Virus record (IMG/VR): IMGVR_UViG_3300009155_000247
Span: 1-24,713 of that record
Source of the DNA: a virus
DNA length: 24,713 bases
Reading direction: 5' to 3' (one strand)
Shown one piece after another: positions 3,407 to 18,745 of the stretch. Below the pieces are notes generated by a model. The model worked only from the letters and a program-made list of their open reading frames with translations, did not search any database and was not told the origin of the DNA. Within the stretch, counting starts at the first letter, position 1. The number at the start of each line of letters is the position of its first letter. Position numbers and translations under genes: made by a program.

Positions 3407-4933
3407 TCAAGCCCCCATCCAAGAAGTGGTCATGACTTTAGGCCCGTATGAATGAATATTTCGAAGCTTTTCTGAAAACTCCCGATGAGCCACTGGAAAC
3501 GCAAAAGTAACACAAAGGGCGTCAGCAGCATCCGGAGACGCTAACCCACGAGCTTTCATTTCTTTTTTACCTTCTAGATAAATAGTTCCAGCACTGTTCG
3601 GCTTTTTCGTGGGTCCGATCAAATCAACTTTTAACTGCCGATCATTAAGAACAGATGCAGTTTTGAGCCATTCACGCATGGCCCCCCACATTTCAGCGCG
3701 TTTGTTACCCCACACGACAGGTGATTTAGCTTTCCAGCCAAAATTCACACCCCGCACTTTATACCTTTGTTCATTTAGGCGGTCCAATATGCCATACCCT
3801 AAACCGCCTTCATCTATTACTGTAAGTGCGGGACTGTATTTTTCAATGGCCTCAATCACGTGCCCAACAGTAGCCATAGTGTCATCGCCCCGATAACGAT
3901 GCAAAGCAATGAGGTCCCGCCCCTGCCGAACTGCGATCACAGTGCTGTCTGCACCCCCGCGAGCAGGATCTACCCCGATCACGATAGGAGCTGTTTCATC
4001 TTTGTACCGAGGACGTTTAAATGCATCCTCCACTAGCATCGGAGTGATGAATTGGTCTTCTCCCGCCACAGGGAATTCACCGTAGACTTCGACCCGTGCT
4101 TGACTTGAATCTTCACCGTATTCCGCGATGATTTGTTCATAAATGGACGTGTCTGTGCCTTCAACTGTCCGAGCGTCGATCTGCAACCCGTCCCAAAAAT
4201 CCCGCTTCCCATGGAAAGTTTCAAAAAAATACCCAGTATTACGCCGAGGATTAGAGAAAGCAAACCAATACCGATCCGGGATATTTTCCGTGAAAAACCC
4301 AGCGGCCACAGACCAAATACTGTCAGGGATACCGGATGCTTCATCGAACACCACCATCATGCCATCATGATTGTGAACACCCGCGTACGCGTCTGGATTT
4401 TCTTCCGACCAAAGCTTGCCTTCGGCGGCCCAATAACGAGTACCTTTTTTCAAGTCGCGTTCAACCAACTCGGCAAGCCAGGGCTGTGGTAACAATTTCG
4501 TTGCCGACGGTTCCCACCAATGTGAGTTAATTGCCATCGCTACCCATTTGGTTAACTCACCCCAAGTAACTGAACGCAATTGATTTTCACTGTTCGCCGA
4601 TATGATTGCTGTTGACCCGATGCGCGTAGTGAGCATCCATATGATCAACCATGATACTAGTGCTGATTTACCGATCCCGCGTCCAGAAGCCACCGCCTGA
4701 CGCAAAGCATCCATGTCGGTTTTGCCTTTATTACTCGCCACATGGTCACGTATTTTACGCAAAATTTTGCGCTGCCATTCACGCGGCCCCTTGAAATTAG
4801 CGAGTGGGGTATTAGCTTGCCCCCACGGGAACACAAATAGTACGAATTTTTCAGGGTCGTTCGCCAACGTGGGCGCCCACAGCCGAGTCATCAACAGCTG
4901 CTCTTCTTCTGGCGTATATTTGAGCTTTTGCAT
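3407..4933 (-). CDS. terL: Terminase large subunit (508 aa)
   Basis: This is the ATP-driven packaging motor and headful or cos nuclease, acting at the portal on the prohead. The ATPase part shows Walker A GRGIGKSA (about residues 84-91) and Walker B VVFDEAS (D197, E198). The C-terminal RNase H-like nuclease shows the acidic triad: D322 in VIGVDPARGG, D374 in TVIDEGG, and D468/D471 in SPDAADAL. The length is typical. Its ATG overlaps the small-terminase stop by 1 nt (TAATG), which indicates translational coupling. The portal follows directly. No domain is missing. Whether it cuts at cos or pac sites cannot be decided here. Confidence 0.95.
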   Translation of the reverse strand: MQKLKYTPEEEQLLMTRLWAPTLANDPEKFVLFVFPWGQANTPLANFKGPREWQRKILRKIRDHVASNKGKTDMDALRQAVASGRGIGKSALVSWLIIWMLTTRIGSTAIISANSENQLRSVTWGELTKWVAMAINSHWWEPSATKLLPQPWLAELVERDLKKGTRYWAAEGKLWSEENPDAYAGVHNHDGMMVVFDEASGIPDSIWSVAAGFFTENIPDRYWFAFSNPRRNTGYFFETFHGKRDFWDGLQIDARTVEGTDTSIYEQIIAEYGEDSSQARVEVYGEFPVAGEDQFITPMLVEDAFKRPRYKDETAPIVIGVDPARGGADSTVIAVRQGRDLIALHRYRGDDTMATVGHVIEAIEKYSPALTVIDEGGLGYGILDRLNEQRYKVRGVNFGWKAKSPVVWGNKRAEMWGAMREWLKTASVLNDRQLKVDLIGPTKKPNSAGTIYLEGKKEMKARGLASPDAADALCVTFAFPVAHREFSEKLRNIHSYGPKVMTTSWMGA

Positions 4934-5409
4934 TAGTTTTGCCGTGGCGTGACGTCGATCACATCCGCCTCCACTAAACGTGAATTAGCCGCCGCTAACG
5001 CTTCAGTGATAGATACCGTACCGCCCACTTCGATTTTATTGACATAATACCCGGCGACCTTACCCCGCGCCTCTTCTGCATTTAAAGCAACTTTCAAAGA
5101 CCCGACCATTTTAGCCATATCCCGAATATTCGCTAACTCGATCAAATGAGACTCCATTGTGATTAAATGGGCATCAAGGATGACTCCATTTAACTCTTTA
5201 ACGCGGGCAGATACCTCAGGACGGGCAAGAAGAGCTTTTGCTTTTCCAGTCGCTTGAGGGTGTTCCCCAAACACGGAAACGTACGCTTGACGTAAATTCC
5301 CGCCCCACTCGATAACGGCTAAAGCAAAATTATCTTCATCCGTGGTAAGCGTTCGCGCTAATTCAACAGTGGCCCCTGAAAGAGAATCACAATGAGTACC
5401 CGCATACAT
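4933..5409 (-). CDS. terS: Terminase small subunit (158 aa)
   Basis: The small terminase recognises phage DNA and starts packaging. The product has an N-terminal helical segment typical of such proteins (TTDEDNFALAVIEWGGN, then the YVSVFGEHPQATGKAKALLARPEV helix-turn-helix-like stretch). It ends in a long helical region, and the stop overlaps terL by 1 nt. The frame stays open upstream to 5733, but that extension is Gly/Arg low complexity translated from the G-rich control region and is not believable. I chose the ATG at 5409; an in-frame ATG at 5466 would add 19 residues. A TGGTATAAT element lies just before 5409, so the extension probably covers a promoter. No Shine-Dalgarno precedes 5409. 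Identity is good; the exact start is moderate. Confidence 0.82.
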   Translation of the reverse strand: MYAGTHCDSLSGATVELARTLTTDEDNFALAVIEWGGNLRQAYVSVFGEHPQATGKAKALLARPEVSARVKELNGVILDAHLITMESHLIELANIRDMAKMVGSLKVALNAEEARGKVAGYYVNKIEVGGTVSITEALAAANSRLVEADVIDVTPRQN

Positions 5410-5424: not shown

Positions 5425-5542
5425 CGAACACGGCCCGAAAAGAATGTAGCGAAAACCATGGATCATGATTGATACCCCAAATTTTCCGAAATATAAAAGA
5501 AAGAAACAACCACCTCCGGTTCCGGTTCGCGACGCGCGTCGG

Positions 5543-5568
5543 CCCCGCCCCCCATACCCCCCCTCCCC
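5543..5568 (-). other. G-quadruplex candidate 1
   Basis: On the - strand four G runs of 4, 7, 6 and 4 are separated by loops of 1 (A), 3 (TAT) and 1 (C) nt. This satisfies the four-tract G-quadruplex rule with at least four tetrads and very short loops, which usually means high stability. It lies upstream of the leftward promoter, on the strand that is sense for the late operon. Confidence 0.7.
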
Positions 5569-5577
5569 GGGTAGCTG

Positions 5578-5611
5578 CCCCCCGGGCCCCCCATGCCCCC
5601 CATACCCCCCC
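5578..5611 (-). other. G-quadruplex candidate 2 with 9-nt periodicity
   Basis: On the - strand four runs of six or seven G are spaced by exactly 3 nt each (TAT, CAT, CCC). This makes a near-perfect 9-nt tandem array and a strong G-quadruplex candidate with 3-3-3 loops. The next C runs (5619 onward) could extend it. Such long mononucleotide runs are also prone to slippage, so exact run lengths may vary between isolates or be sequencing-sensitive. Confidence 0.7.
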
Positions 5612-5720
5612 TGACCTACCCCCCAGGCACCCCCCCCCAAACCGTACCGACCGACCAGAACCGACGCCCGCACCATGCAGCGATGCCCTGCGGTGCGGCG
5701 ATGCCCCTCCACGTGCGTGC

Positions 5721-5850
5721 CCCCCTCCACCACCCCTCCACCCCCTCGACCCCATCACCCCGTCCACACCGTCCACACCGTCCACACCCCGCCCCCCGCT
5801 ACCCACCGCCACCTCATCTAGAAAAAAAGGTGGAGGGGTGGTGGAGGGGG
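5721..5850. repeat. Perfect 22-bp inverted repeat with 86-nt loop
   Basis: The arms are 5721-5742 (C-rich, CCCCCTCCACC at its start) and 5829-5850 (its exact reverse complement). The arms pair over all 22 positions. Flanking pieces (CCCTCCACG near 5704 and CGTGGAGGG near 5874) are also complementary but slightly out of register, so the symmetry extends imperfectly outward. The loop holds three copies of a 9-bp direct repeat. The structure could be a cruciform, a replication origin element or a terminase recognition site; nothing in the sequence decides which. Confidence 0.85.
5761..5787 (+). repeat. Three tandem 9-bp iteron-like repeats (CGTCCACAC)
   Basis: Three perfect head-to-tail copies start at 5761, 5770 and 5779, centred in the loop of the 22-bp inverted repeat. 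The complementary strand reads GTGTGGACG, which shares the TGTGGA core with DnaA boxes but not their AT-rich end. Iteron function is inferred from arrangement only. Confidence 0.8.
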
Positions 5851-5960
5851 TGGCCCGCCCGACGGGGGCGGTGCGTGGAGGGGTCGCACGGAGGGGATCG
5901 GAGCGGGTGAAAGGAGGGGTATGCAATCTAGCAAGACTCGTGCCAGGCATATGGCCTAAA

Positions 5961-5997
5961 AGCGCCTGGAGGGGTAGGGGGTACTCCACCCGGCGCT
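5961..5997 (+). repeat. Interrupted hairpin in the control region
   Basis: AGCGCCTGGAG (5961-5971) can pair with CTCCA (5984-5988) and GGCGCT (5992-5997), leaving a 3-nt bulge and a G-rich loop. A further CCCCTCCA at 6006-6013 is an alternative partner for TGGAGGGG at 5967-5974. No T tract follows, so it is not a simple terminator for rightward transcription. Confidence 0.45.
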
Positions 5998-6116
5998 CTA
6001 CCTATCCCCTCCACCCAACGCCCAGCTTCAGCGCCCGCCCCCGCCCATGCGACAACCACCCGCTGTGCTGATAGTCCCCGGCTATCGACCAAACGATCGT
6101 CATTAAAAAGAACATA

Positions 6117-6796: not shown

Positions 6797-7072
6797 ATGA
6801 AAAACGATGAAAAACGGCGCGCAGCGCTAGCAGCGGCTGTGAACGCATACGTGAACGGACTATGCGATAACGAAGCCGACATCGACTTCGAAGATGTGCT
6901 GGTCAGGCAGGGCGTCGTGCGGCCTGACGACGAAGTCGATGATATATGTGTGCTTGTAAACCCTGACAACGACACCATATTCGGTATCCAAGCAACGGTG
7001 GTCAACGAAAGCGGCAGGTACACCGCAGTCTTTATCGACGTGAATGGCCGCGTCACGCTAGGAAACGTTTAA
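6797..7072 (+). CDS. Hypothetical early protein (91 aa)
   Basis: The ATG at 6797 lies behind the same leader cassette (CATAGGAGAAAC) that precedes the genes at 6204 and 7210; the longer frame from 6752 would run into the previous gene. The product has a basic helical start (MKNDEKRRAALAAAVNAYV) and then a strongly acidic middle (NEADIDFEDVL, RPDDEVDDICVLVNPDND). It ends in a beta-rich segment of the type TVVNESGRYTAVFIDVNGRV. The acidic core could allow DNA mimicry or protein binding, but there is no motif to prove it. I do not recognise the family. Confidence 0.7.
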   Translation: MKNDEKRRAALAAAVNAYVNGLCDNEADIDFEDVLVRQGVVRPDDEVDDICVLVNPDNDTIFGIQATVVNESGRYTAVFIDVNGRVTLGNV

Positions 7073-7083
7073 CGACGCACGCC

Positions 7084-7099
7084 TGTTTCACGTGAAACA
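7084..7099. promoter_or_regulatory. parS: Perfect parS-like ParB binding site
   Basis: TGTTTCACGTGAAACA is a perfect 16-bp palindrome and equals the consensus chromosomal parS bound by ParB/Spo0J across bacteria. It sits 12 bp after the stop codon at 7072, outside any gene. No ParA or ParB gene is visible in the window, so the natural reader would be the host ParB, or a phage ParB outside the window. It has no loop and no T tract, so it is not a terminator. Confidence 0.75.
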
Positions 7100-7209: not shown

Positions 7210-7857
7210 ATGGCAACCGCCCGTAAACCTGTAAAAGCCCTGAACAAAAGCGCGGATGTGATCAAAGCACAGGCCGCTGCTGAAAAAGCTCGCAAAGCCG
7301 CAAGCAAAAAAGCGCTTCGCGAAGCCACAAAAACGAGGCAACCCGACAAGACCACCGTGCCCACCTTGGCTGAGCCTCCTGCCCGCTTCGACCACCGTGC
7401 TGAAGACGCGGCGAATGCTTTAAAAACCGCCGCCGCAGACGCCAAAGCAACCGGGATCACGCTCCAAGCAATGCTCGAAGCCATGGGCATTGACGCCCAT
7501 GGCTACCCCATCGCCGTACCCGACAAAGCCCGGCCCAAGTACAGCGGTCCCATGCTGGCTCTTCGCGCTGCGGCCAAGGGATATGCAACCCCTGCGAACG
7601 GAAACGCGTGCTGCGGCGATCCCCTTGCGGCGGTGTGCGGCGATTTCGAGCGTAAAACCGTGGTCGCGGGCCTGCTTGATGCACTGGGCCTAAAGGCTAA
7701 CCCTTATGCGCATCTCAACCCGGGCCAACAGTCGATGAACCTGCGAAACAAAACCCGCGCGGCTCTGTCCGACGGGCGCGTCACTATGGCGCAGATCAAA
7801 GCGGCTTTGAATACAGCCAGCAAAGGTCTGGCGCAACCCGATCTGAAAAGGGGTTGA
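7210..7857 (+). CDS. Early basic protein, paralogue of the 8205 gene (215 aa)
   Basis: The ATG at 7210 follows TAGGAGAAAC and is preferred over the upstream in-frame start at 7174, which overlaps the leader hairpin. Residues 1-60 are Ala/Lys/Arg-rich and probably helical (KAQAAAEKARKAASKKALREA). The C-terminal domain (about 110-200) contains KYSGPMLALRAAAKGY, then NPYAHLNPGQQSMNLRNKTRAAL. The second paralogue at 8205 repeats this domain almost motif for motif. The basic nature suggests nucleic acid binding. I do not know the family's function. The stop codon overlaps the -35 of the consensus promoter at 7854. Expression is probably early. Confidence 0.75.
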   Translation: MATARKPVKALNKSADVIKAQAAAEKARKAASKKALREATKTRQPDKTTVPTLAEPPARFDHRAEDAANALKTAAADAKATGITLQAMLEAMGIDAHGYPIAVPDKARPKYSGPMLALRAAAKGYATPANGNACCGDPLAAVCGDFERKTVVAGLLDALGLKANPYAHLNPGQQSMNLRNKTRAALSDGRVTMAQIKAALNTASKGLAQPDLKRG

Positions 7858-7882
7858 CAGCGCCCCGCTCACGTACTATAAT
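7854..7882 (+). promoter_or_regulatory. Fully consensus sigma-70 promoter
   Basis: TTGACA (7854-7859), a 17-bp spacer and TATAAT (7877-7882) match the consensus at all twelve positions and in spacing. The -35 overlaps the TGA stop of the upstream gene. Start of transcription is expected near 7889, about 25 nt before the ATG at 7915. This should be among the strongest promoters of the phage in a host with standard sigma-70. Confidence 0.92.
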
Positions 7883-8204: not shown

Positions 8205-9002
8205 ATGGCAAAATTGAACCCTGAAAACCCCGCAGTCAAAAAGCGCGTAGGACGCCCCCCCAAACAAACCCGACCTACGGTACCTAATCCTGAAATCGCT
8301 GATAGTACCACCCAAGAAAATAGCTGCGGCAATGGCGGCTTTTCTATATTCAACCAGTCACCTATAAAGGACTCCTTCATGTCAGAAAAAGACTCTACCC
8401 CCAAGCGGGATATGGCAACCGTAAAAGCGCAAGCCGCTGCCCGCCGCGAAACGGCTGAACTCGCCAGGGCAGAACGCATTGCAGAACGCCAGCGCGTAAA
8501 AGATGCTCGTGACGCTGAAACAATCACCCGAAAACTTGCCCGCGCCGAAGCCTCTGCCCTTAAATCTCAGACCCGTGAGGCGGCCCGTCAAGCCGCGCTC
8601 GAAGCAGGAGGCAAGTACAGCGGCCCTATGCTCGGGTTGCGCGAAGCCAAAAAACGGTACGTGCGGGCTGCGAATGGCCGTCTACGTTCCACCGATCCGC
8701 TAGCAGAAGCGCTTGACGCCGTCGAACCCGACAGCGTGGTCTATATCGCCAAAACGGTTCTTGGGCTGGACAGCAGCCCCTATGCCCACCTGAACATGGG
8801 GCAGCAGTCGATGAACCTGCGCAACCGCGTGAGAACCGCCATCAAGTCAAGCGCCATCACTATCGAAGACGTGATCCGAGTTCGTGATGACAACGGACTA
8901 AAAATCTCGGAAGACATACTAGCGGCGCGCGAACAGCGTCGCGCTGCCGCTTCAGCCCGTAAAAGCGCTGCCGCTTCAGCCCGTAAAAGCGCTGCCGCTT
9001 AA
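8205..9002 (+). CDS. Basic protein with AT-hook-like motif, paralogue of the 7210 gene (265 aa)
   Basis: The ATG at 8205 follows TTTAGGAG by 7 nt; the frame is open further upstream but without a ribosome site. Residues 12-24 (KKRVGRPPKQTRP) resemble an AT-hook, a minor-groove binder of A/T-rich DNA. Residues about 70-125 are a highly charged Ala/Arg/Glu helix. Residues about 138-210 contain KYSGPMLGLREAKKRY and SPYAHLNMGQQSMNLRNRVRTA, shared with the 7210 product. The C-terminus is a repeated AAASARKS tail encoded by 24-bp repeats, similar in style to histone H1 or HU-like tails. DNA binding or nucleoid remodelling is inferred. A second in-frame ribosome site at 8366 may give a 207-residue form lacking the hook. 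Confidence 0.75.
   Translation: MAKLNPENPAVKKRVGRPPKQTRPTVPNPEIADSTTQENSCGNGGFSIFNQSPIKDSFMSEKDSTPKRDMATVKAQAAARRETAELARAERIAERQRVKDARDAETITRKLARAEASALKSQTREAARQAALEAGGKYSGPMLGLREAKKRYVRAANGRLRSTDPLAEALDAVEPDSVVYIAKTVLGLDSSPYAHLNMGQQSMNLRNRVRTAIKSSAITIEDVIRVRDDNGLKISEDILAAREQRRAAASARKSAAASARKSAAA
8366..8381 (+). promoter_or_regulatory. Internal in-frame ribosome site and start
   Basis: AAAGGA (8366-8371) stands 7 nt before an ATG at 8379 that is in frame with the 8205 gene. The short product would begin MSEKDSTPKRDM and start in the region corresponding to the N-terminus of the 7210 paralogue. Two products from one gene are plausible, with and without the AT-hook segment. Confidence 0.5.
8941..9000 (+). 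repeat. 24-bp in-frame tandem repeat, 2.5 copies
   Basis: Exact copies occupy 8941-8964 and 8965-8988, with a half copy at 8989-9000 ending at the stop codon. The unit encodes AAASARKS and builds the basic tail of the 8205 protein. Slippage could change the copy number between isolates. Confidence 0.9.
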
Positions 9003-9054: not shown

Positions 9055-9285
9055 TTGAAGCTCGATAAACACTGTATAGTCCCAATGTTTATCACTGGCA
9101 GCTGTATTAAAGCTTTGCCCGAGTTGAATGGGGCGATGATCAGTGTGAGTAAAGACCGTTTCGCCGACCTCACACTGAAGGATGTAAATATTCAAAAAAG
9201 CAGTTTACAGGGCGGAATTGAATGGACAGACTACTAGCCGCTACGCGGTGAAGCACCGAAAATCAACCCAAGGAAACAGAAATGA
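9055..9285 (+). pseudogene. Degenerate gene interrupted by an in-frame TAG
   Basis: The frame starts at TTG 9055 (or ATG 9085, without a ribosome site) and stops at TAG 9235-9237. Its last residues, SSLQGGIEWTDY, match SNLQHGIFWTDYW in the intact gene at 10288. After the TAG the same frame continues as PLRGEAPKINPRKQK to a TGA at 9283-9285, parallel to PENARVPRINP in the 10288 protein. That TGA would overlap the next ATG (9282) as ATGA. The 10288 protein has Trp at the position of the TAG, so TGG to TAG is the simplest change. It is probably a decayed fragment. Other genes here end in TAG, so a recoded codon is unlikely. Confidence 0.6.
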
Positions 9286-9289
9286 ATAG
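9237..9289 (+). repeat. 53-bp direct repeat, copy 1
   Basis: It is identical to 9765-9817, 528 bp downstream. It covers the tail of the broken gene, the AAGGAAAC ribosome site and the first codons (ATG AAT AG) of the pentapeptide gene. The two copies frame the pentapeptide cassette. Confidence 0.95.
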
Positions 9290-9779
9290 TCAAAATGTAC
9301 TGAAACCCGTCAAGCCCGTAATCAAACACTGTGCCACAGACAAAGTTTTATATGAGGGCGATCCGGGCATGACACTCCGGCGATTACTTGAAAAAGAAAT
9401 CGCCGTCAGCGCGAACCTAAGCGGCGTGGATCTGCGCGGCGTGGATCTGCGCGGCGCGGATTTAGGTGGCGCGAATCTGTACGGCGCGGGTTTAGGCGGC
9501 GCGAACCTGAGCGACGCGGATTTAGGCGGCGCGGGTTTAGGCGGCGCGGATCTGCGCGGCGCGGATCTAAGCGGCGCGAACTTGGTCGGCGCGTATTTAG
9601 GCGGCGCGAACCTGTGCTGCGTAAACCTGTATGGTGCGAATCTGCGAGGCGCGAACCTGGTCGGCGCGAACCTGGTCAACGCGAACCTGCAAAACGCAAA
9701 CCTGCGAAACGCGATCCTGCGAGGCGCGAACCTGGACGGCGCGAACCTGGACAGCGCGAACCTGGCCGCTACGCGGTGA
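9282..9779 (+). CDS. Pentapeptide repeat protein (165 aa)
   Basis: After about 43 N-terminal residues (including KHCATDKVLYEGDPGMTLRRLLEKE) the protein is a continuous A(D/N)LxG array of about 24 pentapeptides up to residue 160. This predicts a right-handed quadrilateral beta-helix. Members such as MfpA and Qnr mimic DNA and bind gyrase, but many pentapeptide proteins have unknown targets, so a role here is not proven. The ATG at 9282 is preceded by AAGGAAACAG inside the 53-bp repeat. The stop codon lies inside the second repeat copy, read in a different frame than in copy 1. The gene therefore looks like an inserted cassette that took both its start and stop from duplicated sequence. Confidence 0.88.
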   Translation: MNSQNVLKPVKPVIKHCATDKVLYEGDPGMTLRRLLEKEIAVSANLSGVDLRGVDLRGADLGGANLYGAGLGGANLSDADLGGAGLGGADLRGADLSGANLVGAYLGGANLCCVNLYGANLRGANLVGANLVNANLQNANLRNAILRGANLDGANLDSANLAATR

Positions 9780-14960: not shown

Positions 14961-16790
14961 ATGACATTTCCCAATCTTTCGGCAGTTCGCGTTATCGGGT
15001 TAGACTATGAGACCACTGGTCTTAAGTATTGGGACCCAGATTTCCGTGTTTTAGGTGTCGGTATCGCAACAATGGATTCCCGTTGGTATTTCGATCTGCG
15101 CAGCACGCCAGGATTGATAGACTGGCTTCAAAGCACGCTGAAAGATAAGCGCGTTGCAGCGCAAAACGCGCAGTATGATTACCAGTGTACCCGTGTTCTC
15201 GGGATTGATCCTCGTGATTCCAAGTGGTGGTGTACAATGGTAAATGAATGCCTTATCGATGAGCACCAGCTAAAATATGACCTTGCTTCGATCGCTGACT
15301 ATCACATGATTGAGTCCCAAAAATCCGCACTGCTGGAGCAGATACGCATCGAGATGGGGTACGCGGACGCACGAGAGGTACTGCGGCGGGCTGCTGAGAT
15401 TCCGGCGGCCATACTAGCCCCGTACGGCGCATCAGATGCTTTCGATGCCATTCGGATATACGACAAACAGGTTTGCGAGATTGAACGTCAAGACCTACAC
15501 GCTGTATCAGAGCTTGAGGCGCGCCTGTTGCCCGTTTTGGCCGACATGTCTTGGGGGGGAGTTCGGGTTGACTTAGAAGCCGCGCATACCGCGATCCCTC
15601 GACTTGATGAGCGAGAGCAAATCCTACAAAGAGAAATTAACGATATCACAGGAACCAAGTTTAACGTTAATTCATCACCACAGGTGCGAGCGTTTTTTAA
15701 TCCGAAGCCTATCAATAAGTTTCAGTGGCGCCTTATCGACGGAACTATTGTCGGCCCCACGAAAACCGGCGGGGGTCCTTCGCTCGACCAGAGTGCCATG
15801 CGTGAAATTAAGCATCCATTGGCCGCGAAAATATTGGCACTACGGAAGACGATCAAGCTTCGTGATACTTTTGTTCGCGGTCACATCCTCGGTAGCGCAG
15901 ACGCTGATGGGTATGTCCACACCCAGTTCAATCAAACACGCAATGACGCGGACGCGGGGACTGTTACCGGGCGACTTTCATCCACCGACCCGGCTCTTCA
16001 ACAGATTCCAAAGCGCGACAGAGAAAACGCCGCAGTATTGCGCGCCATGTTCCTCCCCGATCGTGGTGACGAGTGGTTTTGTGCAGATTACAGTCAAGTA
16101 GATTTTCGCTGCGGGGCACATTTGCAAAATGACCCATCCATCATCGCCGCGTATATTGAAAACCCCGGACTCGATTATCACCAAGTCGTCAGTGATATGA
16201 CGGGCATTCCTCGAAACCCACCTTACGCAGGGGCACCTAATACTAAACAAGTAAATTTAGGGTTGTCGTTCGGGGCGGGACAAGGCAAATTGGCATTCAT
16301 GATGGGGATGCCTTATAGCGTCAAAGAGTACAAGGGTAAAATGACATATGTAGCTGGGCCAGAGGCTGTGGCGGTGTTCGAAATGTACCATAAACGATTA
16401 CCTGCCGTAAAAAGCTTCATGAAAAAAGCTGAGAGTATAGCTAGGGAGACTGGATTTGTTAAAACTCAAATAGGGCGGCGGCTTCGTTTTCCCCGGGGAG
16501 TGGGAACGCATAAAGCAGCAGGATTACTTTACCAGGCATATGCAGCGGATCTCCACAAGCAAGGATTGATCAATACTGACGCTGCGATTCGCGAGGGGAA
16601 ACTTCCGGCCCGTCTAATGGTCAGTGTTCACGACGAGATCGGCGTGTCTATGGCTCGCGATGAGGAAGTCAAGGCTCGCATCATGCATGAATACACAGAT
16701 TTCAATTCGGATTTTTCCCCCATCCGAATGAGAGTGCCAATCACCGCGTCTGGTGAGTATGGTATCAATTGGTGGGAAGCCAGTAAGTAG
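14961..16790 (+). CDS. dpoZ: Family A DNA polymerase of Z-genome type, DpoZ (609 aa)
   Basis: It replicates the phage genome with 2-aminoadenine in place of adenine. The 3'-5' exonuclease shows Exo I D15/E17 (GLDYETTG), Exo II NAQYD73 and Exo III YGASD159. The polymerase shows TGRLSS (336-341), motif A DYSQVDF (D376), motif B K429...F437G and motif C HDE (557-559). Motif A has Asp at 381 where most family A enzymes have Glu, and the Arg usually four residues before the motif B Lys appears to be Ala. The assignment as DpoZ rests on these motifs plus the adjacent purZ, mazZ and datZ. The ATG at 14961 lacks a visible Shine-Dalgarno, but an in-frame stop 10 nt upstream excludes an earlier start. 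Confidence 0.9.
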   Translation: MTFPNLSAVRVIGLDYETTGLKYWDPDFRVLGVGIATMDSRWYFDLRSTPGLIDWLQSTLKDKRVAAQNAQYDYQCTRVLGIDPRDSKWWCTMVNECLIDEHQLKYDLASIADYHMIESQKSALLEQIRIEMGYADAREVLRRAAEIPAAILAPYGASDAFDAIRIYDKQVCEIERQDLHAVSELEARLLPVLADMSWGGVRVDLEAAHTAIPRLDEREQILQREINDITGTKFNVNSSPQVRAFFNPKPINKFQWRLIDGTIVGPTKTGGGPSLDQSAMREIKHPLAAKILALRKTIKLRDTFVRGHILGSADADGYVHTQFNQTRNDADAGTVTGRLSSTDPALQQIPKRDRENAAVLRAMFLPDRGDEWFCADYSQVDFRCGAHLQNDPSIIAAYIENPGLDYHQVVSDMTGIPRNPPYAGAPNTKQVNLGLSFGAGQGKLAFMMGMPYSVKEYKGKMTYVAGPEAVAVFEMYHKRLPAVKSFMKKAESIARETGFVKTQIGRRLRFPRGVGTHKAAGLLYQAYAADLHKQGLINTDAAIREGKLPARLMVSVHDEIGVSMARDEEVKARIMHEYTDFNSDFSPIRMRVPITASGEYGINWWEASK

Positions 16791-16798
16791 GAGCAATC

Positions 16799-17863
16799 AT
16801 GCCACATCAAATTGATATGGTCATGGATTTCCAGTTCGGTAGCACCGGCAAGGGGTCCATTTGTGGGTATTTAGCGAAACGGGAAAAATATGACGTCGCG
16901 GTTTGTGCTTTTGCGACTAACGCCGGGCACACTTATATCGATAAACAACGCGGAATCCATGTGATGACGCAACAGTTACCAACTGCGCTTACTTCACCTA
17001 CTGTTCACACTTTGATGATCGGGCCAGGTGCAGCCATCCACATTGAAACACTTCGCGATGAATTACACCGGTACAGCAGTATCATCGGCGATAAGCGGAT
17101 CATGATCCACCCCCACGCCGCCGTGGTTGAAGACTACCACGCTACTTATGAATTAGTAGATGGACGAACTAAAATGGGATCAACAGCTAAAGGAGTGGGT
17201 GAGGCCTACATCGAGCGCATGCGCCGCAGTACGGGGGACAGCAACATAATCCAAAACCGAGTTAGTTACTCAGACCCGATTGCCGCCTATATCACTACCC
17301 CTGAAAAGTACCGAGATGCGTTGTATGCCGCCAATGCTGTGCTGATTGAGGGGGCACAAGGATTCGGACTATCGATGTACCATGGGTTTTACCCGTACGT
17401 TACTTCGCGGGATGTTACTCCATGGCAAGTTGCAGCCGATTGTGGGATTCCTTTTCAATGGGCGCCGTACATCATGCCGATCGGGACGCTGCGCACGTTT
17501 CCTATTCGTGTCAGTAACCGGGATGGTTCATCGGGACCCGGATATTGCGATCAGCGTGAAATGAAATGGGAGGAATTAGGGATAGAGCCGGAATTAACCA
17601 CCGTGACTAAGCTTCCACGCCGGATTTTCACATTTAGTCAGGATCAGCTTACTCAGGCCCATTTCCATTGCGGTGGATATTGGCGCACTCGTCTATTTTT
17701 AAATTTCGCCAATTATGTCAACACTAGAAGAGAGCTTCGGACGTTAATCGAAGAAATCGAACGACACCAACATCTCAGGCTTAACCCCCCCAAAGTTGAA
17801 TGGATCGGGTACGGTCCTGATGACAGAGATGTCATAACCCGTGCTGAATGGGAGAAAGCATGA
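16799..17863 (+). CDS. purZ: PurZ, N6-succino-2-amino-2'-deoxyadenylate synthase (354 aa)
   Basis: PurZ joins aspartate to dGMP using ATP or dATP. The host PurB and kinases then yield dZTP. It is a PurA homologue. The P-loop reads QFGSTGKG (12-19) instead of PurA's QWGDEGKG, so the catalytic Asp is Ser15, a change known in the PurZ group. The NAGHT motif with the general acid His44 is kept (41-45), as are GSTAKGVGEAY (127-137) and EGAQG (184-188) followed by HGFYPYVTS (195-203). It is shorter than bacterial PurA (about 430), as usual for phage PurZ. GTAGGAG lies just before the ATG. The stop overlaps mazZ by 4 nt. The identification is strong from motif and neighbours. Confidence 0.93.
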   Translation: MPHQIDMVMDFQFGSTGKGSICGYLAKREKYDVAVCAFATNAGHTYIDKQRGIHVMTQQLPTALTSPTVHTLMIGPGAAIHIETLRDELHRYSSIIGDKRIMIHPHAAVVEDYHATYELVDGRTKMGSTAKGVGEAYIERMRRSTGDSNIIQNRVSYSDPIAAYITTPEKYRDALYAANAVLIEGAQGFGLSMYHGFYPYVTSRDVTPWQVAADCGIPFQWAPYIMPIGTLRTFPIRVSNRDGSSGPGYCDQREMKWEELGIEPELTTVTKLPRRIFTFSQDQLTQAHFHCGGYWRTRLFLNFANYVNTRRELRTLIEEIERHQHLRLNPPKVEWIGYGPDDRDVITRAEWEKA

Positions 17864-18195
17864 AAGACGCGCATGACACGGTAACTCTTGAAATGGATAT
17901 AGGGTGGACTATAGACCACCTTGCCGCCTATGTGTTTCAATGGGCATCTTCCGTTTTCCCCGATCGCACGGACAGCAGTATGTTCATCAAGATTTTTGAA
18001 GAATTGGCTGAAGTGATTCGCTCTGATGGTGACGCTTTGGAAGTTGCAGATCTGTTTATCATGCTGCTTGACTACGCCAAACGTAAAAACATCAACATCG
18101 AAGAAGCGGTACGCCACAAATTAAGCATTAATAGGGACCGCAATTGGCGAATTAACGCTAACGGCACGATGAGTCACTATAACTCGGAGAAATAA
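17860..18195 (+). CDS. mazZ: MazZ-like MazG pyrophosphohydrolase (111 aa)
   Basis: In Z phages this all-helical enzyme converts dGTP (and possibly dATP) to the monophosphate, supplying dGMP to PurZ. The MazG metal-binding residues are E47/E48 and E51 in FEELAE, and E61 and D64 in EVADLF. The length fits the short phage MazG group. The ATG at 17860 overlaps the purZ stop (ATGA) and has GGAGAA upstream; the ATG at 17848 would be inside purZ. The placement between purZ and datZ supports the Z pathway. Without this context it would be called a generic MazG-like NTP pyrophosphatase, so substrate specificity is inferred. Confidence 0.85.
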   Translation: MKDAHDTVTLEMDIGWTIDHLAAYVFQWASSVFPDRTDSSMFIKIFEELAEVIRSDGDALEVADLFIMLLDYAKRKNINIEEAVRHKLSINRDRNWRINANGTMSHYNSEK

Positions 18196-18196
18196 C

Positions 18197-18745
18197 ATGA
18201 CACACCCATTCTATGTGAACCCCAACGGAGATCTTCACATCGAAGCTATCGTTCGGGCGCAGGCTGTGAAGCGTTGGCATATGATCGATACTACTCGGAT
18301 GCAATCGGTCGCGGAGCATTCAGCGAATGTGGCCATGCTAATGTATTATATCAGCCATCACGCTCCGCAGGCGTATTTTGGTTCCCCAGCGGGCGCGGCG
18401 CTTTCTGGATTGCTGCACGACATATCTGAGGCATTCACCGGGGATATCCCCGGACATACGAAGCGCGAGCTGCAAGGGATCGACGAGCTGGAGTCTCGTC
18501 TGACACCCCCCACATTAACTTATAAAGTTTCTGATTCGGTAGGTTTGCTCATGAAACTGTGTGATTTAGCCGACGGAGTGCGGTTCATCTCGGCCCATGG
18601 GGTTGGCACGGATGCTGGCTGGGCTCGTGATTGTTTGATTAAGAAATTAAATGACAAGAAAGCCCAAGCTACAGCAGAATGGCCTCAAGTGGTATATAAC
18701 AGTGTGGTCGCTAAGATAGATAATTACATATGGGGCTCGGCATGA
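18197..18745 (+). CDS. datZ: DatZ-like HD-domain dATP triphosphohydrolase (182 aa)
   Basis: DatZ removes dATP, as deoxyadenosine plus triphosphate, so that the polymerase meets Z instead of A. HD-domain residues are visible as H41 (VAEHSANV), H74 and D75 (LLHDISEAF), and D123 or D126 (LCDLADG). An RW pair at 26-27 is also conserved in the related YfbR nucleotidases. The length matches known DatZ and YfbR proteins. The gene begins 1 nt after mazZ and overlaps the next gene by 4 nt. YfbR-type 5'-nucleotidase activity is the alternative, but the purZ/mazZ/dpoZ neighbours favour DatZ. Confidence 0.87.
   Translation: MTHPFYVNPNGDLHIEAIVRAQAVKRWHMIDTTRMQSVAEHSANVAMLMYYISHHAPQAYFGSPAGAALSGLLHDISEAFTGDIPGHTKRELQGIDELESRLTPPTLTYKVSDSVGLLMKLCDLADGVRFISAHGVGTDAGWARDCLIKKLNDKKAQATAEWPQVVYNSVVAKIDNYIWGSA

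Follow-up and report, generated by a model that had tools for sequence, protein, structure and literature searches.

A lytic-type phage genome carries, between two of its early genes, a perfect copy of the parS site of bacterial chromosomes, and comparison with related genomes shows that parS is under selection in this phage group. We consider it probable that the 16-mer acts in cis as a functional chromosomal-type parS, at which host ParB would load and the phage genome would come to be positioned and organised like the host origin. The window, i.e. the whole stretch of DNA analysed (24,713 nucleotides, positions 1 to 24,713 of IMG/VR virus record IMGVR_UViG_3300009155_000247), is an incomplete genome, and the contig is phage throughout its length.

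The parS site and its genomic setting

The window encodes PurZ and DatZ together with DpoZ (Table 1), the set of genes that marks a Z-genome, and judging from this gene content the phage probably replaces adenine with 2-aminoadenine (Z) in its DNA. The solved structures matched best by the polymerase and PurZ are ones that we take to be phiVC8 DpoZ (7pbk) and phiVC8 PurZ (6tnh, 6fko and 6fm3), and the MazG-like pyrophosphatase gene is read as MazZ from gene order. Further genes code for a P22-like portal, TerL, an SNF2-type helicase and a VapE-like primase. The nearest relative by TerL, DSL-LC05, has a polymerase of a different type (annotated as family B) and is without parS.

Table 1. Coordinates of features in the window
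Feature	Coordinates	Strand	Remarks
TerL	3407-4933	-	
Terminase small subunit-like gene (TerS)	4933..5400	-	Assigned by position beside TerL; homologues in relatives
Small early gene, 91 aa	6797..7072	+	Just upstream of parS; family search without match
parS, perfect 16-base palindrome TGTTTCACGTGAAACA	7084..7099	.	Intergenic; equals consensus parS of PMC7383237
Early gene, 215 aa	7210..7857	+	Just downstream of parS; 'KYSGPML / GQQSMNLRN' family
Perfect sigma-70 promoter consensus TTGACA-17-TATAAT	7854..7882	+	~750 bases downstream of parS
Paralogue of 7210 gene	8205..9002	+	
DpoZ-like family A DNA polymerase	14961..16790	+	Best solved match 7pbk, E 2e-95
PurZ	16799..17863	+	6tnh/6fko/6fm3 (phage adenylosuccinate synthetase), E 1.8e-71; also PurZ 7odx
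MazG-like pyrophosphatase	17848..18195	+	PHROG matches
DatZ-like dATP triphosphohydrolase (HD protein)	18197..18745	+	DatZ 6zpa, E 1.1e-9

The sequence-only reading had taken the palindrome for a perfect chromosomal parS, and this was borne out, in that it has no mismatch to the idealised chromosomal parS of a ParB co-crystal, TGTTTCACGTGAAACA (PMC7383237). The site is present as a single copy in the 137-base gap separating genes 6797-7072 and 7210-7857, and there is no second match with three or fewer mismatches in the window, where 100 dinucleotide shuffles average 0.08 such matches. An exact occurrence of the 16-mer by chance in 24.7 kb is estimated at approximately 6e-6; because many motifs might attract a reader's eye, conservation is a better test than this estimate.

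At 7.1 kb, parS lies in the early region and near the minimum of cumulative GC skew of the window, at 9.1 kb. A scan for the sigma-70 consensus found only the one site in Table 1, and shuffles expect 1.6 at a looser scan threshold. The family to which gene 7210-7857 belongs occurs in other Z-phages too. A model of its product (pLDDT 71, pTM 0.42) has no match in a PDB search, and its structural matches are exclusively uncharacterised phage proteins, including those of Vibrio phage JSF9 and Alteromonas phage ZP6. This gene was considered as a general partner of parS and rejected, because ZP6 encodes such a protein yet lacks parS.

Several other features of the region were noted. Five early genes (6191, 6784, 7197, 7902 and 8192) have in common a similar start-codon leader, TAGGAGAAACRAAATG or near it. 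A C-rich block at 5500-6060 (GC approximately 0.6) separates divergent gene blocks and contains a perfect 22-base inverted repeat (5721-5742 and 5829-5850), and the pentapeptide-repeat gene at 9282-9779 has 71% DNA similarity to Caulobacter phages RW, KcrB and RLK.

It had also been claimed that no parA or parB is visible, and searches of the window, an incomplete genome, with PF02195 (ParB_N) and PF13614 (ParA) were indeed empty. ParB_N is similarly lacking in the site-bearing close relatives, and ParA in seven relatives and phages BUCT555, Barton and JeffCo; the parB and parA that accompany parS on the same replicon in a complete ParABS system were thus not found in the window, incomplete as this genome is. 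If host ParB and ParA can work in trans, an extrachromosomal element would need no more than an orphan parS for its partition, and host ParABS could in this way maintain a non-integrating phage as an episome; full ParABS systems are carried by phage-plasmids (PMC7157519). We regard such a carrier state as distinctly improbable here, since genes for plasmid replication or lysogeny were seen neither among the window proteins scanned, which represent part of the genome, nor in the annotation of BUCT555, where the only exception is the 'integrase' label of the gene that stands where the VapE-like primase is expected. Moreover, a DpoZ search of a bacterial genome collection gave a single distant match, a phage contig (L389) binned in a Verrucomicrobia MAG.

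Conservation among DpoZ relatives

Phages with a DpoZ at least 58% identical form a close group of 22, the window included, in which the 21 relatives are at 58-72% identity; 17 of the 22 are informative, five contigs that are cut short (L122, L123, L317, L319 and L329) having been left out. Exact cores, GTTYCACGTGRAAC, are present in 11 of these 17 (the window, L124, L125, L126, L127, L128, L322, L323, L326, L328 and L330). A search of relatives for the 16-mer had been proposed as a check, and rather than being absent from all of them, exact cores were recovered in 10 of the 16 informative phages other than the window. No exact core was found in 59 more distant DpoZ loci. Six contigs of the close group (L318, L320, L321, L324, L325 and L327) lack the site, with the stretch or most of the genome covered; L320 and L321 look like one type, and because five types thus have the region or a nearly whole genome without the site, parS is dispensable for the group.

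The sites of the carriers mostly lie in the stretch from TerS, the gene for which is its left border, to the early genes. That of L323 is just outside the stretch examined, and that of L326 is at the opposite contig end, a place that is upstream only in the case of a circular contig. In most carriers parS flanks or sits inside a homologue of the 7210-7857 gene, and it is variously upstream, inside or downstream of the neighbouring gene, at distances that vary among relatives. Alignments by blastn among relatives are patchy (approximately 65%) within genes and none spans parS, the flanking DNA having diverged.

Variants of the exact core in close relatives differ only at positions 1, 5, 12 and 16, namely position 5 (C or T) with its partner and the base at either end; variation among the homologous sites is confined to positions that ParB tolerates, as expected of parS. 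All 14-base palindromes whose halves have one free base between two fixed triplets (4096 half-sites) were ranked, and GTTNCAC, the parS half-site, comes first, being present in 9 of 18 genomes as against 3 for the runner-up. Of the 70 palindromes seen in this ranking 65 occur in one genome, and these counts are not independent events because the genomes share ancestry.

The location of the site raises the alternative that ParB, once loaded and spreading along the early operon, would repress its promoters or delay their firing, with no role for positioning. parS stands at the head of the early module; one gene follows after 110 bases and the perfect sigma-70 consensus after ~750 bases. Promoters beside parS3 and parS4 are reported to be repressed by P. 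aeruginosa ParB (PMC5521831). However, an operator would rarely allow the variation in placement seen among relatives, and a role restricted to early-gene switching is possible but rather unlikely. Because both the side and the distance to the adjacent gene vary, a ParB loading site fits better than an operator.

Loading of host ParB and the effect of Z

parS is read by ParB mainly via the major groove (PMC7383237). ParB is loaded in the form of a CTP clamp, which spreads and activates ParA (PMC12704722); it also recruits SMC at parS (PMC10197239), and during lytic infection it loads on lambda with an engineered parS (PMC13190303). In the mechanism that we favour, host ParB-CTP would load as a clamp at the 7.1 kb parS upon infection and would spread from there across the phage early region and the presumed origin. 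Through the loaded ParB, phage DNA would be linked, on entry and while replicating, to the host ParA gradient, to SMC loading or to both, the phage genome thereby being positioned and organised like the host origin, and the spreading ParB may also tune adjacent early promoters. The idea that the phage recruits host ParB, as put forward in the sequence-only reading, fits the orphan state of the site, its selection and its early-region position close to the GC-skew minimum, but none of the specific outcomes suggested there (positioning, silencing or titration) is singled out by these data. We infer that host ParB would bind the site, also with Z for A, and any effect of this, whether positioning, compaction, early-gene control or titration, is likewise a prediction.

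The further suggestion of a role for the site solely before or after replication is doubtful, as virion DNA and replicated DNA are both expected to contain Z, with no stage at which ordinary A would be present. The site would thus work only if ParB reads Z-parS, because incoming and newly made DNA should both contain Z; such binding is plausible because the amino group of Z is in the minor groove and ParB reads the major groove.

Compared with the chromosomal parS of bacterial ParABS systems, the phage site is an identical 16-mer, its variants in relatives match the parS code and it is near a presumed origin, but it is on a lytic-type genome without parA and parB, in DNA expected to carry Z for A. 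Filamentous phage CTXphi, which uses dif and host XerCD, likewise has in cis a site taken from host chromosome maintenance and depends on a host protein, although dif is for integration whereas a phage parS would be for ParB loading. The ParABS cassettes of phage-plasmids such as mycobacteriophage RedRock also place a centromere-like site on a phage genome, but include their own ParA and ParB with an unrelated direct-repeat parS and serve prophage maintenance (PMC7157519). Staphylococcus phage Lacachita, with ParB but no ParA, similarly has an incomplete partition system (PMC10286716), whereas the window phage has the site alone, without the protein. In the open full-text literature, which takes in neither preprints nor most subscription journals, we found no lytic phage described as having an orphan parS, and the novelty of such a site is provisional.

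Orphan parS sites in other phages

The exact 16-mer TGTTTCACGTGAAACA is present in at least 120 IMG/VR contigs, as is the natural variant TGTTCCACGTGGAACA, and at least 120 contigs likewise contain an 18-mer made of the exact 16-mer and two fixed flanking bases. Since 14 of the 120 exact-site loci listed share that flank, a rough extrapolation gives about a thousand contigs or more with the site. Control palindromes gave 2, 1 and 29 matches, the last being for TGTTGCACGTGCAACA, which has a transversion at position 5 (G5; loci L168-L196), and the background of similar palindromes is therefore not always near zero. Among the loci listed, 89 of 146 parS sites lie outside ORFs of at least 100 aa (30.4 expected), and two or more sites are found in 26 of 120 parS loci versus none of the 29 control loci.

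The earlier claim that chance is a very unlikely origin gains support from the recurrence of cores in relatives, the top rank of the palindrome and its excess over control palindromes. Although a very large collection is expected to yield orphan 16-mers at low frequency, conservation in relatives, enrichment over controls and a contig that is phage throughout make chance or host contamination extremely improbable. A merely parS-like palindrome serving another phage or host regulator would accord with the frequency that some palindromes reach for other reasons (as with the 29 matches of the G5 control), but the exact motif and the parS-specific C/T tolerance recur in unrelated phage groups, and no gene family near parS is common to all of these; we give this reading little credence.

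Of 162 IMG/VR records with parS that were searched in full, only 6 gave a ParB_N match over the cut-off; many of the 162 are fragments, such that some apparent orphans may have ParB elsewhere. A candidate for a missed ParB in L012, in which a PHROG 'ParB C-terminal domain' matched a large protein, was discarded because a Pfam scan shows no ParB_N.

A second phage group, making up 36 of the 120 loci listed, shares one TerL family (phrog_38, HTVC023P/HTVC027P-like). In many of these (L083, L093, L097, L120, L029, L019, L042, L101 and L119, among others) parS is 35-151 bases upstream of terL, a placement that would suit control of nearby promoters by spreading ParB. Pelagibacter phage HTVC027P is a cultured relative of this group (TerL identity 64%); its single exact core is intergenic and near TerS, and it has no ParB_N.

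Some contigs carry arrays, with five parS sites in L116 and twelve cores within 5 kb of a 117-kb contig (L087:8906-13878) that has no ParB_N and for which a near match among named phages was not found. Such arrays would be consistent with titration, in which replicated phage genomes soak up host ParB and either free the phage from host chromosome segregation or disrupt it. Most carriers, the window among them, have no more than two sites, however, and a single site would be a poor titrator early in infection, when host take-over matters; titration thus seems quite unlikely to be what parS is for.

Among cultured Z-phages, Stenotrophomonas phage BUCT555, whose DpoZ is 36% identical to that of the window, has five sites, three of them exact cores and two with one mismatch. 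They cluster in the early region that also contains parS in the window, and one of them lies upstream of the 7210-like gene of this phage. Acinetobacter calcoaceticus phages Barton and JeffCo (MW176032 and MW176034) each have two exact and seven one-mismatch sites spread genome-wide, at matching places in both and hence not independent of each other. The parS scan found none in Z-phages of A. baumannii (three tested), Salmonella, Klebsiella, Providencia, Vibrio (two), Alteromonas and Burkholderia, nor in PSA28. To our knowledge Salmonella, Klebsiella and Providencia are hosts without chromosomal ParABS, and absence from their phages favours recruitment of host ParB; counting against it, the site is also absent from the Z-phages of some hosts expected to have ParB, namely A. 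baumannii, Vibrio, Alteromonas and Burkholderia. A strict correlation with host was not established, given nine sites or near-sites in the A. calcoaceticus phages and none in those of A. baumannii.

A tag kept in relatives and present in many unrelated viruses suggests that viruses borrow a host chromosome-segregation protein. The broader proposition, that unrelated lytic lineages recruit host ParB (and via it ParA or SMC) by means of an orphan parS, and in Z-phages do so on Z-DNA, we judge to be evenly poised on the present genome comparisons. ParB-parS is among the most conserved bacterial chromosome-maintenance systems, and if true this would add a new layer of phage-host interaction, encompassing genome positioning, SMC loading and early-gene control. 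The predictions are directly testable in the cultured carriers HTVC027P, BUCT555, Barton and JeffCo, and the Z-phage carriers offer a test of a master DNA-binding protein reading a fully base-modified genome.

Three minor observations concern the sites themselves. The two bases 3' of the exact 16-mer are strongly T-rich (TT in 65 of the 120 loci listed, L002-L121), which suggests an extended phage consensus. The TGTTGCACGTGCAACA control loci, nine of which are intergenic versus 3.9 expected, may be sites of another protein. A spring-water podovirus (L148, MW202898) has sites at 1045, 3251 and 3680 in which one central base of parS is changed, GTTCCACATGGAAC once and GTTCCACGTAGAAC twice.
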